The notes under the pieces are model-generated. The model searched no databases. It was not told where the DNA came from and was given only the letters and a program-made list of their open reading frames with translations. 45,344 bases of DNA from Oscillospiraceae bacterium. Its GTDB lineage: Bacteria; Bacillota; Clostridia; Saccharofermentanales; Fastidiosipilaceae. Shown piece by piece: positions 25,302 to 41,362 of this stretch. The position numbers and the translations under genes are program-made. Every line of letters starts with the position of its first letter. Position 1 is the first letter of the stretch. Where the stretch lies: assembly GCA_028704415.1 (NCBI GenBank), contig JAQWFM010000001.1, positions 1 to 45,344 on the forward strand, in the 5' to 3' direction.

Positions 25302-25669
25302 AGTGTCTTCCTCCCAGGCTTTATATATTGATTATACCCCCTCGCAGCCAGGCAGGCCGTTCAGGCTCAGCTGGCTTGCCGCCAGCCTCGCCCGGTTTGT
25401 GCCCGGCCGACGGGTCTGGCCCCTGCTTTTAAAATGTAACTTATTCGTAATAATGCACATAGTTATCCACATGATGTGGATAACTGCTCTGGCCTCCGCC
25501 CTTATATTTCGGGCCTTTCTTAACCTGGTCATAACATCCGGTCGGTTTATCCTATCTCCATTTGGCCAGAATTTCATGTTACAGGCGGCCGCTTTATTTC
25601 AATCCGGCCTTTTAACCGGCTTGACAAATAATCTTGTTTTACCTTAGACCAACAGGCCGGGCCGGCCAT
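25302..25669. other. Non-coding region with an inverted pair of DnaA boxes
   Basis: Between the Yip1-like gene and the pyrG terminator, about 370 bp appear non-coding. An open frame on the plus strand exists but has no ribosome binding site and low-quality composition. The centre contains a perfect palindrome of two DnaA boxes, listed separately, and the right part (25500-25640) is moderately AT-rich. Confidence 0.5.
25461..25485. promoter_or_regulatory. Inverted pair of consensus DnaA boxes (25-bp palindrome)
   Basis: TTATCCACA at 25463-25471 and its reverse complement TGTGGATAA at 25475-25483 are separated by TGA. Flanking bases extend the symmetry to 12-bp arms around one central base. 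Both half sites match the DnaA box consensus TTATNCACA exactly. The same arrangement could alternatively bind another dimeric protein. Confidence 0.7.
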
Positions 25670-34802: not shown

Positions 34803-37800
34803 TCAGGAGGCCTGGCTGACCTTGAGCTGGACTTGCTCCAGCGCGGCAAAAAGCTTCGCCAGGCGGCGGGCAGCCGCCTTAAGCGGCGCCGCGGCTTTGC
34901 GGTAAAGTAAATAAGGCTTGGTGCCGGCGTTAAACAGAATTTGACCTTTATACTGCGGCAGATTCAGCAGTAAGGATAAAGCCTGCATATTAAGCTTGCT
35001 GTCACTGTCCAGATCCAGGATCAAGCCGTCCCTGAGCACAGATATCCGGGCAATCCGCAGTCTGGCTGCCCGCGCCCGGCTGTAGGACACGCTGCACAAG
35101 GTCTGGACGGCCTCCGGGATATCGCCGTAACGGTCCATCAACTCATCCAGAACATCCTGGTAATCTGACAGGTCCCGGATGGTGGCTATACGGCGGTACA
35201 TATCCATGCGCCGGCCGTCATCCGGAATGTACTCATGCGGAATATACGCGTCCAGCGGCAGCTCAATCTGCGGCTGTGGCAAGGCCGCGGCATTTTCCTC
35301 CGCAGCGGCGGCAGCGGTCTGGCCAGAAGCCGGTTCAGCCGCCTGACCTACCCGGCGGACCGGACCGGTGGCACCGGCTGCCGCGGCAGGCTGGCTGGCT
35401 TCGCCCAGTTCCGCGCGCAATTTGGCAATCTCTTCTTCAAGCATGCGGGTATAAAGGTCATAGCCGATCGCTTCCATCTGCCCGTGCTGCTCGGCCCCCA
35501 GCAGATTGCCTGAGCCTCGCACCTCCAGATCCCGCAGGGCAATTTTAAAGCCCGCGCCCAGCTCAGTAAAATCCCGGATAGCCGTCAGGCGCTTTTCAGC
35601 CACCTCTGACAGGACCTTATCCCGCCGGTAGGTAATGTAAGCATAAGCCTGGCGGGCCGAACGGCCCACGCGGCCCCGCAGCTGATACAGCTGGGCCAGG
35701 CCCAGGCGATCGGCTTGTTCCACAATAATGGTATTGACATTGGGCATGTCTATACCCGACTCAATGATCGTTGTGCAGACCAGGATATCCGCTTCATGAT
35801 GCACAAAGTCATTAATGACATCCTCCAGCATCCGTTCGCCCATCTTGCCGTGACCGGTCAGGATGCGCGCGCCGGGCAGGAGTTCCTTTAGCCGCAGGGC
35901 TTTTTCCTCAATATGATAAGTATCATTAAACAGATAAAACACCTGGCCGTTACGGCCGATCTCCCGCAGGATGGCGTCGGTTATCACCTGTTCGTCATAA
36001 GCCATGACGTAGGTCTGCACCGGGCGGCGGTCCTCCGGCGGTTCTTCAATAACACTGATGTCTCTGATCCCGGACAAGGACATATGCAGCGTCCGTGGGA
36101 TAGGCGTGGCCGATAGCGTCAGCGTATCCACGGTTGGGGTCAGACTGCGCAGCCGCTCTTTATGCTCTACGCCAAAGCGCTGTTCTTCATCCACGACCAG
36201 CAGGCCCAGATTTTTGAATTTGACGTCCTTAGACAAAATGCGGTGGGTGCCGATCACGACGTCGATGCTGCCATTCGCCAGACCCTTCAGGGTTTTTTTA
36301 CGCTGTGCCTCCGTCGCAAAGCGGGAAAGCAAGCCTACGCGAATCGGAAAATCGTTGATCCGGCGCAACAGGTTTTCATAATGCTGCTGCACCAGGACGG
36401 TAGTGGGGGCCAGGAAGGCCGCCTGCATGCCATCTGCCACGCACTTGACAATCGCCCTGAAGGCGACCTCGGTCTTGCCAAACCCTACATCCCCGCACAG
36501 CAGGCGATCCATGACTTTACCTGATTCCATGTCAGCGCGGATTTCCCTGATGCAGCGCAGCTGATCTTCAGTTTCTTCGTACGGGAAGCTTTCGGCAAAT
36601 TCATGATCCAAAATGCTGTCCGGCGGAAAAATGTGCCCCTTCATTTGAGCCCGCTGGGCATACAGATGCACCAGATCCACCGCCAGCTTACGGATAGAGC
36701 TGCGAGCCCGGTCTTTAAGGTGATTCCACTCCTGGCTGCCCAGATTGGACAATTTGGGGGTGCGGCCTTCGCTGCCCACATATTTTTGCAGCTGGTCCAG
36801 TGCATCCATGGGCAGAAAAAGCTGGTCCCCGCCACCATAGGTTACGGTCAGGAAGTCGCGCTTGACCCCGTTGACGTCCTCATGCGTGCTCAGCCCCTGA
36901 TAAATCCCAATCCCGTAAGCTTCATGGACCACGGCCTCTCCGGGCTCCAGATCGCTGAAAAAGTCAATCCGCACCCCTTGCGACGCCCGGCGGCGGCGCC
37001 GCGACCGGTCATGGCCAAACAGGTCCTCACTGCCCAGCAGCAGCAGGGAAGCGGCAGCGGGGTACTCAAAGCCGCGTTTCAGGGAGGCGTCCAGTATAGG
37101 CGGCAACTGGTTTATGCCCTGCTCGCTTAAATACGCCGCCAGCCGGCGGGTCCGTTCCGTGTCGCCGGTATATAGCAAGGTCAGGCCACCCTGCGCCTGG
37201 CGCAGCCGCAACAGCTCCGGCAGCCGCTCTTCATGACCGCGATAGCTTTCCGCGGCCTGGCCGTTAATCAGGACAGTTCGGCTCCCCCCTAAAGTTGCCG
37301 CCGCGCCCTGCAGGGTGGTCAGGCTCAGCACTGACCGGCTTTGTTCCAGCCGGCGAAAACAGCCCGCACCGTCTGGCTGCAGGGCTTCTGCCTGCGGAAA
37401 GCTGCGGCCTTTGGGCAGCAGGCTGCCCAGCTGGGCCACAAATTCAGCCTGGTGGCTGTCCATCCGGCTGCGGACTCTGAGCGGCTCATCCACGGCGGTC
37501 AGGCAAGCGCAACTGGCAGCGTAATCCAGGATGGTAGCCGGCGGGTTATACAGCAGCGGCAGCCATTTATCTAAGCGCGCGGCATTTTGCCCGTCATGGA
37601 TGGCGTGCAGATCACCCTCCAGCAGCTGCTGCAGGCGCTTTGTCACCTCCGGCTCCACCTGGCGGCGGCGCATATGCAGTAAGGCTGCTTCTCCGGCCTG
37701 GCGCACCCGGGCGGCCAGATCATCGCGCTGCCCGCGGCCTAACGCCGTAACCAAAAGTTCTGCCGCCGGCGTCACCAGCACGCCGGCCAAAACTTCCAGC

Positions 37801-38561
37801 GAGCGCTGGGTTTCCAAACGGTAGCTGCGAATCTGATCTATCTCATCATCAAAAAAGGAAAAGCGGTAGCCGGTGCTGTCCCGGTAAGGCTGCAGGTTTT
37901 GCTCCAGTCCGACCGGCGCCACATCCACAATATCACCGCGGCGGGCAAATTCCCCCGGCAGCTCTGCCTGCGGGCGCCGTTCATAGCCTAAGTTGAGCAG
38001 CCAGGCCGACAGCACCTCCGGACCGCCGCCGGGGAGCGGATCCGATCCGTTGGTGCCGGCGTCAGTCACTTGCTGCCCCGGCTGCAGCTTCAGGCTGCAG
38101 CGGTTGAAAAGCTCCGGCGGCGGCAGCTGCTGCAGGGCTGCGGGAGCCGGCACCAGCAAAATATCCGTCTGGCCTTCAGTCAGCCGGCGCAGGCAGCCAA
38201 GCCGCCGGTGTTCATTTTCCCGACTGACCGCTTCCGCGTCCCCCAGCTCATACTCCCGCCCCGGGAAGCTCATGATGCGCTCTGGGTTAGCTGACAGCGC
38301 TTCCAGGTCCTGCTGAAAACTGCGGGCAGCCAGTTCATCCGGGACCAGCAGCAAGACAGGCCGGCCCAGCGCCTGCTGCCAGGTCAGCAGCAGGCCGGCT
38401 TTTTGGCTTTGGGCCGGGCCGCTGACGTTCAGCGAGGCCTGAGGCCAGAGCTTTTTGACGGTCTGCCAGCCCGGATCAAGCTCACAGGCCTGCCGCAGGA
38501 GGGTCTGCGCGGCCAGGGTTTCCTGGGTCAGATCAGCTTGGGGTTTTAACTGTTCAGGCAT
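34803..38561 (-). CDS. mfd: Transcription-repair coupling factor Mfd
   Basis: A DNA translocase that removes stalled RNA polymerase and recruits UvrA to lesions. The 1252 residues include the UvrB-like N-terminal modules (MSFPGREYELGDAE). The RNA-polymerase-interacting domain is near DLEPGEAVVHEAYGIGIYQGL. The RecG-type motor has Walker A in CGDVGFGKTEVAFRA, Walker B DEEQRFGVEHKE, SATPIPRTLHMSLSG and RGRVGRSARQAYAY. The C-terminal TRCF domain is around YIPDDGRRMDMYRRIA. An Ala-rich linker (about residues 1065-1105) before the last domain is unusual in composition. The start overlaps the end of pth by 8 bp. The order pth-mfd is conserved in Firmicutes. Confidence 0.97.
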   Translation of the reverse strand: MPEQLKPQADLTQETLAAQTLLRQACELDPGWQTVKKLWPQASLNVSGPAQSQKAGLLLTWQQALGRPVLLLVPDELAARSFQQDLEALSANPERIMSFPGREYELGDAEAVSRENEHRRLGCLRRLTEGQTDILLVPAPAALQQLPPPELFNRCSLKLQPGQQVTDAGTNGSDPLPGGGPEVLSAWLLNLGYERRPQAELPGEFARRGDIVDVAPVGLEQNLQPYRDSTGYRFSFFDDEIDQIRSYRLETQRSLEVLAGVLVTPAAELLVTALGRGQRDDLAARVRQAGEAALLHMRRRQVEPEVTKRLQQLLEGDLHAIHDGQNAARLDKWLPLLYNPPATILDYAASCACLTAVDEPLRVRSRMDSHQAEFVAQLGSLLPKGRSFPQAEALQPDGAGCFRRLEQSRSVLSLTTLQGAAATLGGSRTVLINGQAAESYRGHEERLPELLRLRQAQGGLTLLYTGDTERTRRLAAYLSEQGINQLPPILDASLKRGFEYPAAASLLLLGSEDLFGHDRSRRRRRASQGVRIDFFSDLEPGEAVVHEAYGIGIYQGLSTHEDVNGVKRDFLTVTYGGGDQLFLPMDALDQLQKYVGSEGRTPKLSNLGSQEWNHLKDRARSSIRKLAVDLVHLYAQRAQMKGHIFPPDSILDHEFAESFPYEETEDQLRCIREIRADMESGKVMDRLLCGDVGFGKTEVAFRAIVKCVADGMQAAFLAPTTVLVQQHYENLLRRINDFPIRVGLLSRFATEAQRKKTLKGLANGSIDVVIGTHRILSKDVKFKNLGLLVVDEEQRFGVEHKERLRSLTPTVDTLTLSATPIPRTLHMSLSGIRDISVIEEPPEDRRPVQTYVMAYDEQVITDAILREIGRNGQVFYLFNDTYHIEEKALRLKELLPGARILTGHGKMGERMLEDVINDFVHHEADILVCTTIIESGIDMPNVNTIIVEQADRLGLAQLYQLRGRVGRSARQAYAYITYRRDKVLSEVAEKRLTAIRDFTELGAGFKIALRDLEVRGSGNLLGAEQHGQMEAIGYDLYTRMLEEEIAKLRAELGEASQPAAAAGATGPVRRVGQAAEPASGQTAAAAAEENAAALPQPQIELPLDAYIPHEYIPDDGRRMDMYRRIATIRDLSDYQDVLDELMDRYGDIPEAVQTLCSVSYSRARAARLRIARISVLRDGLILDLDSDSKLNMQALSLLLNLPQYKGQILFNAGTKPYLLYRKAAAPLKAAARRLAKLFAALEQVQLKVSQAS

Positions 38562-39201
38562 CCGGCTGCTGTGCCTCCTTATGGTGCGGGCGTGAGGGAT
38601 TAACCCGGTTCATCGCCAGCTGAATATCATGCTCCAGCCACAAAGGCACCGCCTCCGCCACTTGCTGCAGGGCCTGATCCAGCAAGAGCTGCTGAGCCGG
38701 GCTGACCCGGGACAAAACGTAGTCGGCAATATCCATGGCAGCCGGCTGCGGTCCAATTCCAATCCGAATACGGGGAAATTGCTGGCTGGCCAGGGCGCTC
38801 ACCACCGAACGCATGCCATTATGGGTGCCGGGTCCGCCTTTTTCGCGAATCCGGATCTGGCCCAAAGGAATATCCACATCGTCATAAAGCAGCAGGACCT
38901 GGTCCAGCGGGACTTTAAAATAAGCCACGGCAGCAGAAAGGCTTTGTCCGCTGTTATTCATAAATGTCTCTGGCTTAAGCAGAATTACCTGCCGGCCGCA
39001 GGCCGTACCGCGGCCATAAACGCCCTTGAAACGGGCTTTATTAACTTTGACAGCAAAGAGTTGAGCCAGGCGGTCCAGCGCCATGAAGCCGCAGTTATGA
39101 AAGGTGGCGGCATAGCGGGAGCCGGGATTACCCAGACCTGCAATCAGGTATAGCTGGCCTGAGTTACCAGTGGCACGCTCAGGCTGAGTTTGACATAACA
39201 T
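38554..39201 (-). CDS. pth: Peptidyl-tRNA hydrolase
   Basis: Releases tRNA from peptidyl-tRNA that has dropped off the ribosome. The 215-residue product shows LIAGLGNPGSRYAATFHNCGF, with the catalytic His in FHNCGF at about residue 35 (usually RHNVGF). FMNNSGQSL, LLYDDVDIPLGQIRIREKGGPGTHNGMRS and the helical lid region RIRIGIGPQ also fit. ATG at 39201 has GGAGG 11 bases upstream; a TTG six codons earlier overlaps the binding site and is excluded. The 3' end overlaps mfd by 8 bp. It follows the GlmU-like gene by 46 bp, matching the glmU...pth-mfd order of other Firmicutes. Confidence 0.96.
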   Translation of the reverse strand: MLCQTQPERATGNSGQLYLIAGLGNPGSRYAATFHNCGFMALDRLAQLFAVKVNKARFKGVYGRGTACGRQVILLKPETFMNNSGQSLSAAVAYFKVPLDQVLLLYDDVDIPLGQIRIREKGGPGTHNGMRSVVSALASQQFPRIRIGIGPQPAAMDIADYVLSRVSPAQQLLLDQALQQVAEAVPLWLEHDIQLAMNRVNPSRPHHKEAQQPDA

Positions 39202-39247
39202 AATCTGATGGTCCTCCAATTATTGGTGCAGCAAAGCCCGTCCGGGT

Positions 39248-40606
39248 TTACAGCGGCTGCAGGTGATCGCCCTCAGGTCTGGCGCGCCGGCGTCTGACCC
39301 AATCCGGCACCAGCGCCTGGCGCCCGCGGCCCAGCGCCAGGGCAAACTCCGGCACCGGGTCAGTAATAACGGAACCAGCGGCAATATAAGCGTTAGCGCC
39401 AATGTCCACAGGCGCCACCAGACTGCTATTAGCCCCAATCATGGCTAAATTACCAATGGCCGAGCGATAAGACAGGCCGCTGCCGTCATCATTAACGGTG
39501 GTGGCGCCGCTGCCCAGCCGGACCCCCTCGCCCACATCACAGTCAGCCAAAAACACCCGGCTATCTATCACACAACCCGGGCCTACCACGGCGTTGCTGA
39601 TCTCAGCGGCCCCCACCCGGCATTCGCGGTCCAGCCAGCAGGCGTCATGCAGCCAGGCATAGGGACCAATCCGGCAGCCGGTCCCGGCTACCGAGTGCTC
39701 CAGTACGGAGCGGTTGATGTGACAGTCAGCTCCGACCTCACAGTCCTCCAGCGTGCTGTCAGGCCCCAGGACACAGTTTTCTCCGATCCGGGTATGCCCG
39801 TAAAGCCGGCAGCCCGCCCGGATAACGGTCCTGGCGCCCACGCTGACCGTCTCCTCAATATAAGTCAGACCCGGCGCTTCAATGGTCACGCCCTGCTGCT
39901 GTAACCGCTGCTGAATCCGCTGGCTGAGCCAGTCTGACGCCTGATTTAGCGAAGCTGTGTTTTTAACCTGCAGGAGCTCTTGCCCCGGCCAGGTCAGGCA
40001 GCGGACCTTGAGGCCGTCTTGCTCAAAAACCGACAGCGCCAGACTCAGGTCCGGGCAGCTGTCGCCGGCTTGCGGCGGCTGGTGGCAGCCGGTACCCAGC
40101 CGGCCCAGGACAGAGAGCAGGCGCGCAGTCCGGTAGATAAACAGCCCGCCGCCGCGATCCTGGGTAAAATCGGGCTGAAAGGTTTCCTGACAGCGGGGGG
40201 GCTCCTGATCACTGCCGGCACAGACCCAGAGCGCATCACAGTTTTGCTGCTCAAAAATCCGCAGGGCCTGGCGCAAGGTGGCCGCTTCCAGTAACGGCAT
40301 ATTGCCCGGGACCACCAGTGTCAGACCGTCACGGCTTTCCAAAAAGCTGGAAGCCTGCAATATGGCTGCGCCCAGATGTTCAGGATCCTCCTGCAGCACA
40401 TAGGCTATATCCTCACCTAAAATATGTCTGAAAGAGCCGGGGGCCTGGCCAATAATGTAGAGCTGATCCCTGATCCCGGCCTCAGCCAGCGTATCCCGGA
40501 CCCGGGCAATCACCGGCCGGCCCCCTAACGGCCACATGTATCCATCCGTCTGAGCAAAACCTGAAGCAGCTAAATCCGACGCCAGTACCAGCGCGCATAT
40601 ATTCAT
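39248..40606 (-). CDS. GlmU-like protein with degenerate catalytic sites in both domains
   Basis: The 452 residues have the layout of GlmU: an N-terminal nucleotidyltransferase fold (1-225) and a C-terminal left-handed beta-helix of hexapeptide repeats (240-440). The latter includes IGANSSLVAPVDIGANAYIAAGSVITDPVP. However, the nucleotide signature LxxGxGTRMxSxxPK is replaced by LVLASDLAASGFAQTDGYM. The magnesium-binding Asp of GDVPL is Asn102 in PGNMPL, and the GTGHA loop reads GAAIL. In the acetyltransferase half, RPGT, VKKS and the catalytic His of HLxYIGD are gone (DSRVFLAD), and NYDG is NDDG. It is probably a non-catalytic or repurposed paralogue. ATG at 40606 follows AAAGGA. It occupies the usual glmU position before pth-mfd. 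Confidence 0.8.
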   Translation of the reverse strand: MNICALVLASDLAASGFAQTDGYMWPLGGRPVIARVRDTLAEAGIRDQLYIIGQAPGSFRHILGEDIAYVLQEDPEHLGAAILQASSFLESRDGLTLVVPGNMPLLEAATLRQALRIFEQQNCDALWVCAGSDQEPPRCQETFQPDFTQDRGGGLFIYRTARLLSVLGRLGTGCHQPPQAGDSCPDLSLALSVFEQDGLKVRCLTWPGQELLQVKNTASLNQASDWLSQRIQQRLQQQGVTIEAPGLTYIEETVSVGARTVIRAGCRLYGHTRIGENCVLGPDSTLEDCEVGADCHINRSVLEHSVAGTGCRIGPYAWLHDACWLDRECRVGAAEISNAVVGPGCVIDSRVFLADCDVGEGVRLGSGATTVNDDGSGLSYRSAIGNLAMIGANSSLVAPVDIGANAYIAAGSVITDPVPEFALALGRGRQALVPDWVRRRRARPEGDHLQPL

Positions 40607-40624: not shown

Positions 40625-41362
40625 AATCGGTCCTAACCTAAGTTTAGATTTGCCGGTGCAAAGCTAGACCCCAATTGCGCCCCTGAGGGGCCCTGCAATG
40701 AGGTCTTCATGCTGAATTTATTATACCGCAAGCTCGGACGTTCATCAGCCTGCCGCCGGCAGACGGGCTGGCCTGTTTTTCCTGTGCGGACAAACATTTA
40801 TTCGTCACAGCAGGTTATCGACATAAAGCTATGGCCGACCGCCAGAGCCGCGATGTGGATAATGTGGATAAGTCTGAGGATAGATAGCATCGCTGTTTCA
40901 CGGATTACAGCAATGTAAACTTTAGTTTTCCTGCATGTTTCACGTTTACACGCTTGTGATCATTCAGGTTACGCCAGCCTGGCGGTTCAAAAGCCCGGAA
41001 GCCTTTATTCATGGGCTTTTCAGCCGTTTTTATGCTCTGGTTCAATTATTACAGCCAGGTTAAGCCAGGCTATGGATAAGTCTGTGGATGAGCATGGATA
41101 AACTGCGCCAGGCTTGTCTCCGGAGCCGTCCCAGCCGGACTCGCTTTGCTTCTGCGCCTCTCCGCCTGAGGTTTCCGGTTCTGGCGGCGGCCGCGCGTCC
41201 AGCTAAGACCCCCGAGCCTGAGAGCCCTGGCCCCGGAGCCTGGGACATAGCGATTTGACAATCCTTACGGCTTAGTTATTCTGAGAGGTAGCCGGACTAA
41301 TAAACGAGGGCGTTCAGGCCCGCCGTTTCAGCGGCTGAATCAGATTGCGGGAGGCAACTTGC
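40625..41362. other. Large divergent intergenic region with DnaA-box cluster
   Basis: This is the longest non-coding stretch of the window (about 740 bp), between a minus-strand and a plus-strand gene. It holds at least five DnaA-box-like 9-mers (40815-41101) and two parS-like half sites (40894 and 40936), with several AT-rich patches (40720-40735, 40905-40950, 41025-41055). The right third (41110-41230) is GC-rich. GGGAGG at 41349-41354 serves the aminopeptidase gene. No gene or known RNA family is apparent. Confidence 0.6.
40815..41101. promoter_or_regulatory. Cluster of DnaA boxes, possible replication origin or DnaA-titration site
   Basis: Two exact boxes, TGTGGATAA, stand head to tail at 40854-40862 and 40863-40871. 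One-mismatch boxes are TTATCGACA (40815-40823), TATGGATAA (41071-41079) and TGTGGATGA (41083-41091), with a two-mismatch CATGGATAA at 41093-41101. Most point the same way. TGTTTCACG, the left half of the ParB site parS, begins at 40894 and 40936. The cluster lies at a divergence of coding strands. Confidence 0.55.

Follow-up and report, generated by a model that had tools for sequence, protein, structure and literature searches.

The 45,344-bp window analysed here (positions 1-45344 of contig C96) contains a divergent gap, 40625-41362, crowded with DnaA boxes, and the question raised by this locus is whether the gap holds a replication origin separated from dnaA or a cluster of boxes that binds DnaA elsewhere on the chromosome and restrains initiation. 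Both possibilities were put forward in the original prediction. It is the second that fits, with the restraint itself putative: the boxes are conserved, their spacing is fixed, and the site is of the kind known from the Bacillus subtilis clusters. The element is best explained as an extra-oriC DnaA-box cluster that binds or titrates DnaA and may regulate glmU-pth-mfd, a reading to which a probability of roughly 0.7 is assigned.

Five DnaA boxes with at most one mismatch lie inside 290 bp of the window; in 400 dinucleotide shuffles of the window, there were never more than two boxes per 290 bp and the tandem pair never appeared. The core is formed by two exact copies of TTATCCACA, recognised from the start, which are located head to tail on the minus strand at 40863-40871 (box 2, its position kept across relatives) and 40854-40862 (box 3), with 0 bp between them. 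The third member of this array, missed in the original prediction, is the weak box CTATCCTCA (box 1, 40875-40883, minus strand), 3 bp before box 2. Its position was set by alignment with 12 relatives carrying a TTATNCACA-like box there, and it is identical in Oscillospiraceae bacterium HV4-5-C5C (G001), the second species of the genus. The core geometry is box, 3 bp, box, 0 bp, box, all head to tail on the coding strand of glmU-like-pth-mfd and upstream of this operon. By pattern search, boxes 2 and 3 are the sole head-to-tail TTATNCACA-N0-20-TTATNCACA pair of their own genome, a 141-contig draft in which box statistics for the whole genome were drawn from pattern searches and two contigs. Array 2 (41071-41101, minus strand), about 210 bp away from the core, comprises the weaker box TTATCCATG (41093-41101) and the one-mismatch boxes TCATCCACA (41083) and TTATCCATA (41071); the same three positions in G001 carry TTATCCACA, CCATCCACA and TTATCCACA, two exact and one near. 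Another one-mismatch box, TTATCGACA (40815-40823, plus strand), falls in the contig gap of G001. These four outlying boxes were all present as originally described.

The gene nearest to the array on its left is GlmU-like (39248-40606, minus strand, ATG at 40606) and possesses the Pfam domains Hexapep and NTP_transf_3. Its protein scores far under the curated NCBIfam cut-offs for GlmU (248 versus 450 bits and 222 versus 367), and this may reflect a degenerate uridyltransferase half or a different substrate. It is followed on the same strand by pth, for peptidyl-tRNA hydrolase (38554-39219; TIGR00447, 186 bits, cut-off 100), and mfd, for the transcription-repair coupling factor (34803-38561; TIGR00580, 995 bits, cut-off 800). 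From the sequence, a probable -10 element of the glmU-like-pth-mfd promoter, TATAAT, is located at 40720-40725 (minus strand), the point at which contig C5 of G001 starts with TATAATA, and a probable divergent promoter of the M18 gene, TTGACA-N16-TATTCT, at 41255-41282 (plus strand) and conserved in G001. About 6 kb to the right of the gap, at C96:47296-49468, genes for a helicase loader (DnaC/DnaI-like) and a primosome protein (DnaD/DnaB-like) are found.

Within the genus, positions belonging to boxes and half-sites are 81% identical between the window and G001, versus 62% in the rest of the gap (P=0.002, with the box lost at the G001 contig end scored as mismatched). The comparison covers everything to the right of the tandem boxes; the G001 assembly breaks exactly in these boxes (C11 end, C5 start), and about 130 bp of the gap are missing. 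Across the order, the exact tandem TTATCCACATTATCCACA was found in 20 of 188 genomes (25 hits), and the reversed control gave none. All 25 hits fall into two contexts, with the array pointing at the downstream gene. Locus (a) lies before glmU-pth-mfd, pth-mfd, or a PTS EIIC gene (PF13303), which appears to precede pth-mfd in one relative (L144). Locus (b) lies before proA, followed by rpiB-upp-atpB where the sequence allows. The B. subtilis gene ywlC is near rpiB-upp-atp, and the idea that the proA-rpiB-upp-atpB array and the ywlC cluster correspond in position is suggestive only. In the aligned elements, the tandem pair is preceded at 3 bp by a third box, a plan that the window fits with its weak box 1. 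Without exception the array occupies the coding strand, some 65-285 bp ahead of the start codon, and it remains linked to the downstream operon as the upstream neighbour varies. A survey of 80 Pth loci from named genomes gave no more than five box clusters, four of them directly before glmU/pth (one of the four, L143, has the same sequence as G178). A family-level scan permitting two mismatches added G005 and G008, with degenerate copies at these loci; G008 has both (a) and (b). Most family f2 and f3 genomes, and several of family f1, lack the array at the glmU/pth place, and it is therefore not essential across the order.

Related arrays are found across the class. A free search of 148 class genomes for head-to-tail triples with gaps of 0-4 bp matched 16, of which 11 are spaced 3,0 (P of about 1.5e-12 if all 25 spacings were used evenly, a value that ignores shared ancestry). 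These triples sit in lineage-specific places, the neighbouring genes being named from sequence. Some precede a gene resembling that for ribosome hibernation promoting factor (L210 and L218, two families), and others, from several families (L092-L100, L217), lie 3' of a gene for a zinc-ribbon protein, together with a sigma-factor-like gene and often before an amino-acid ABC transporter. A mirrored array with 9,12 spacing immediately follows the 3' end of tsaD/gcp in 13 of the 27 Clostridia scanned, from many families (L224-L239, L247). Its geometry is identical and its strand relative to tsaD constant, and the next gene differs or is convergent. It was not found in families f1-f3 of the order in this 27-genome scan, and the tsaD locus of the window's own genome carries no array.

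DnaA-box clusters outside oriC are known from B. subtilis, where PMC4447404 places them at ywcI/vpr, gcp/ydiF, trmE, ywlC, sda and yydA. They are mostly intergenic, some of them upstream of DnaA-repressed genes, with ywlC and vpr among those that DnaA appears to repress (PMC4447404). Deletion of six such clusters led to early initiation (PMC5295017), and sequestration of DnaA by the clusters has been described (PMC13220808). The present element resembles them in having several close DnaA boxes away from the unwinding region. The clostridial tsaD/gcp array also shares its place with the B. subtilis gcp cluster, and PMC4447404 records strong DnaA binding downstream of gcp; this suggests that B. 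subtilis shares the gcp cluster with Clostridia. The element differs in its strict 3-0 triple and fixed GTGAAACA site and in its position before glmU-pth-mfd, which is not a top B. subtilis DnaA site. The parts of PMC4447404 consulted report no B. subtilis cluster at the glmU/pth place, and no link of the glmU/pth array to Bacillus could be made. A literature search found no paper on DnaA boxes at mfd/pth, which is weak evidence of novelty.

The gap gathers several boxes beyond chance within a few hundred base pairs outside oriC, and these are conserved in relatives, both being characteristics of extra-oriC clusters. Its conservation, synteny, geometry and position are established by sequence. 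Boxes, spacing and conservation together point to DnaA binding. The two exact boxes would most likely provide an anchor for DnaA, from which it would assemble cooperatively along the array, and DnaA bound to the array would be withheld from oriC, amounting to titration. Because of the array's position upstream of this operon's promoter, DnaA may also raise or lower transcription of the operon with its own level and, by extension, with the replication cycle. One point against the cluster reading is the 0-bp gap between boxes 2 and 3, which may hinder their simultaneous occupancy. Outside Bacillus, control of DnaA re-firing at the origin is poorly known in Gram-positive bacteria, and the element offers exact, conserved and testable candidate DnaA docking sites of set geometry in gut and environmental Clostridia, together with a putative link of DnaA to a specific operon (pth, mfd).

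The strongest competitor, possible but clearly behind the cluster reading, is that the array is only a DnaA-regulated promoter element, for glmU-pth-mfd and at locus (b) for proA-rpiB-upp-atp, with no meaningful role in initiation timing. The array is faithful to its downstream operon and precedes the start codon on the coding strand in every case, and in several genomes of family f4 it is followed at about 60 bp by a TATAAT; fixed strand and distance to the operon therefore favour some promoter role at (a) and (b). In the window, the array is about 130 bp upstream of the likely -10 element, further than in family f4, and box 1 is weak, so that direct promoter control is less likely in this species. 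Promoter control is also unable to explain the module in general, because the tsaD array keeps its geometry and strand independently of a differing or convergent next gene; the lack of a common downstream gene there favours a DnaA-centred role of the module. The two trends together rank titration, possibly accompanied by promoter control, ahead of promoter control alone.

The array is accompanied by a second motif. The half-parS site GTGAAACA (40894-40901, minus strand) lies 10 bp before box 1 and is kept in relatives: it is found 10-11 bp from box 1 in 13 aligned locus-(a) genomes, exact in 11 and with one mismatch in 2. A second GTGAAACA half-site (40936-40943, minus strand) is identical in G001 and was not seen in other genera. 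A TTTACA hexamer (40914-40919, minus strand), 12 bp before GTGAAACA and aligned in most locus-(a) elements, is a possible low-affinity DnaA site. The left halves of parS, TGTTTCACG, reported at 40894 and 40936 are both present, one of them conserved, and ParB binding to them is putative. Of the 12-of-16 match to parS claimed for the first, the part that stands is one fully conserved half-site; a full parS at the locus is ruled out, the 16-bp palindrome TGTTTCACGTGAAACA having no match with up to three mismatches anywhere in the window. Candidate ligands of GTGAAACA may be ParB, another regulator, or DnaA itself through low-affinity contacts. A more elaborate proposal, speculative and rather unlikely as a whole, makes the element a composite DnaA-plus-ParB module of fixed phase, in which ParB or a ParB-like protein at the half-parS would help or sense DnaA assembly off the origin and tie initiation control to segregation and to a repair and translation operon. 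More broadly, it would have Clostridia share a kit of fixed-geometry DnaA arrays that change locus in the course of evolution, the gcp one being in common with Bacillus. A functional half-parS would bring initiation and segregation factors together at one non-origin site.

Less probable again is an element that, by analogy with E. coli datA or DARS, would alter the DnaA-ATP/ADP state beyond binding. Like datA, DARS1 and DARS2 (PMC4585315), the element is non-coding, far from oriC and conserved in box spacing; it has a fixed accessory site, its copy in the closed genome G002 (same family, 1.79 Mb) is near mid-replichore at 218.8 kb, and DARS cores also contain three DnaA boxes (PMC4585315). Nucleotide-switch loci have been described in E. 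coli, however, where datA and DARS are defined by the change of DnaA nucleotide and by IHF/Fis sites; no IHF or Fis site is evident in the element, and the likeness here consists of box number and fixed spacing only.

That GTGAAACA is a degenerate parS serving as a ParB loading or spreading point, the DnaA boxes being incidental, is slightly more doubtful still. The genome does contain parA, parB and parS, the exact half is shared by the 11 sites mentioned above, and the half opposite GTGAAACA matches parS at 3.9 of 8 positions on average over the 13 aligned sites, versus 2.0 expected. Yet only one half, GTGAAACA, is exact and conserved and the other is degenerate, the left half being poor; the full, genuine parS sites of these genomes cluster near dnaA; and locus (b) is mostly devoid of GTGAAACA with its boxes retained.

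A chromosomal origin apart from dnaA, as was first considered on account of the box density and the divergent gap, is almost certainly not what the gap contains. In this genome, dnaA is on a separate contig (C115), where dnaN follows it and parA, parB and near-perfect parS sites are some 6 kb off; GC skew and coding strand both flip at dnaA. The 84-kb contig C96 shows weak negative skew throughout with no flip, and mainly minus-strand genes on either side of the gap. The rightward run of several kb that had been described is real for M18, fur and rpmB, but beyond these three the genes are again mainly on the minus strand, and hence there is no origin-like strand switch. G002 agrees: its two skew flips are located at dnaA (1.61 Mb) and around 0.6 Mb, and both dnaA and the skew minimum are about 394 kb away from its element. 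The bases after box 3 are GC-rich, an AT-rich unwinding region next to the boxes is absent in the window, and inspection by eye of the sequence that follows box 3, in the window and in the aligned locus-(a) and (b) elements, showed no repeated DnaA-trios. The basal unwinding system of oriC (PMC8287927) needs such trios within about 16 bp of the boxes. The same box-3-box-0-box geometry does occur in one true clostridial origin, in the dnaA-dnaN gap of G389 (L103), where it is followed by ACTACTACTACTAA trios and forms a candidate basal unwinding system.

Chance or relic boxes without function are equally improbable, for although the sequences of box 1 and array 2 have drifted away from consensus in this species, the shuffle test, conservation and synteny all speak against it.

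A second DnaA-box site is present in the window at 25451-25483, in the interval that separates the 3' end of pyrG, a CTP synthase-like gene, from its neighbour. It is arranged head to head as TAATGCACA-tag-TTATCCACA-tga-TGTGGATAA, and is near-identical in G001 across about 36 bp.
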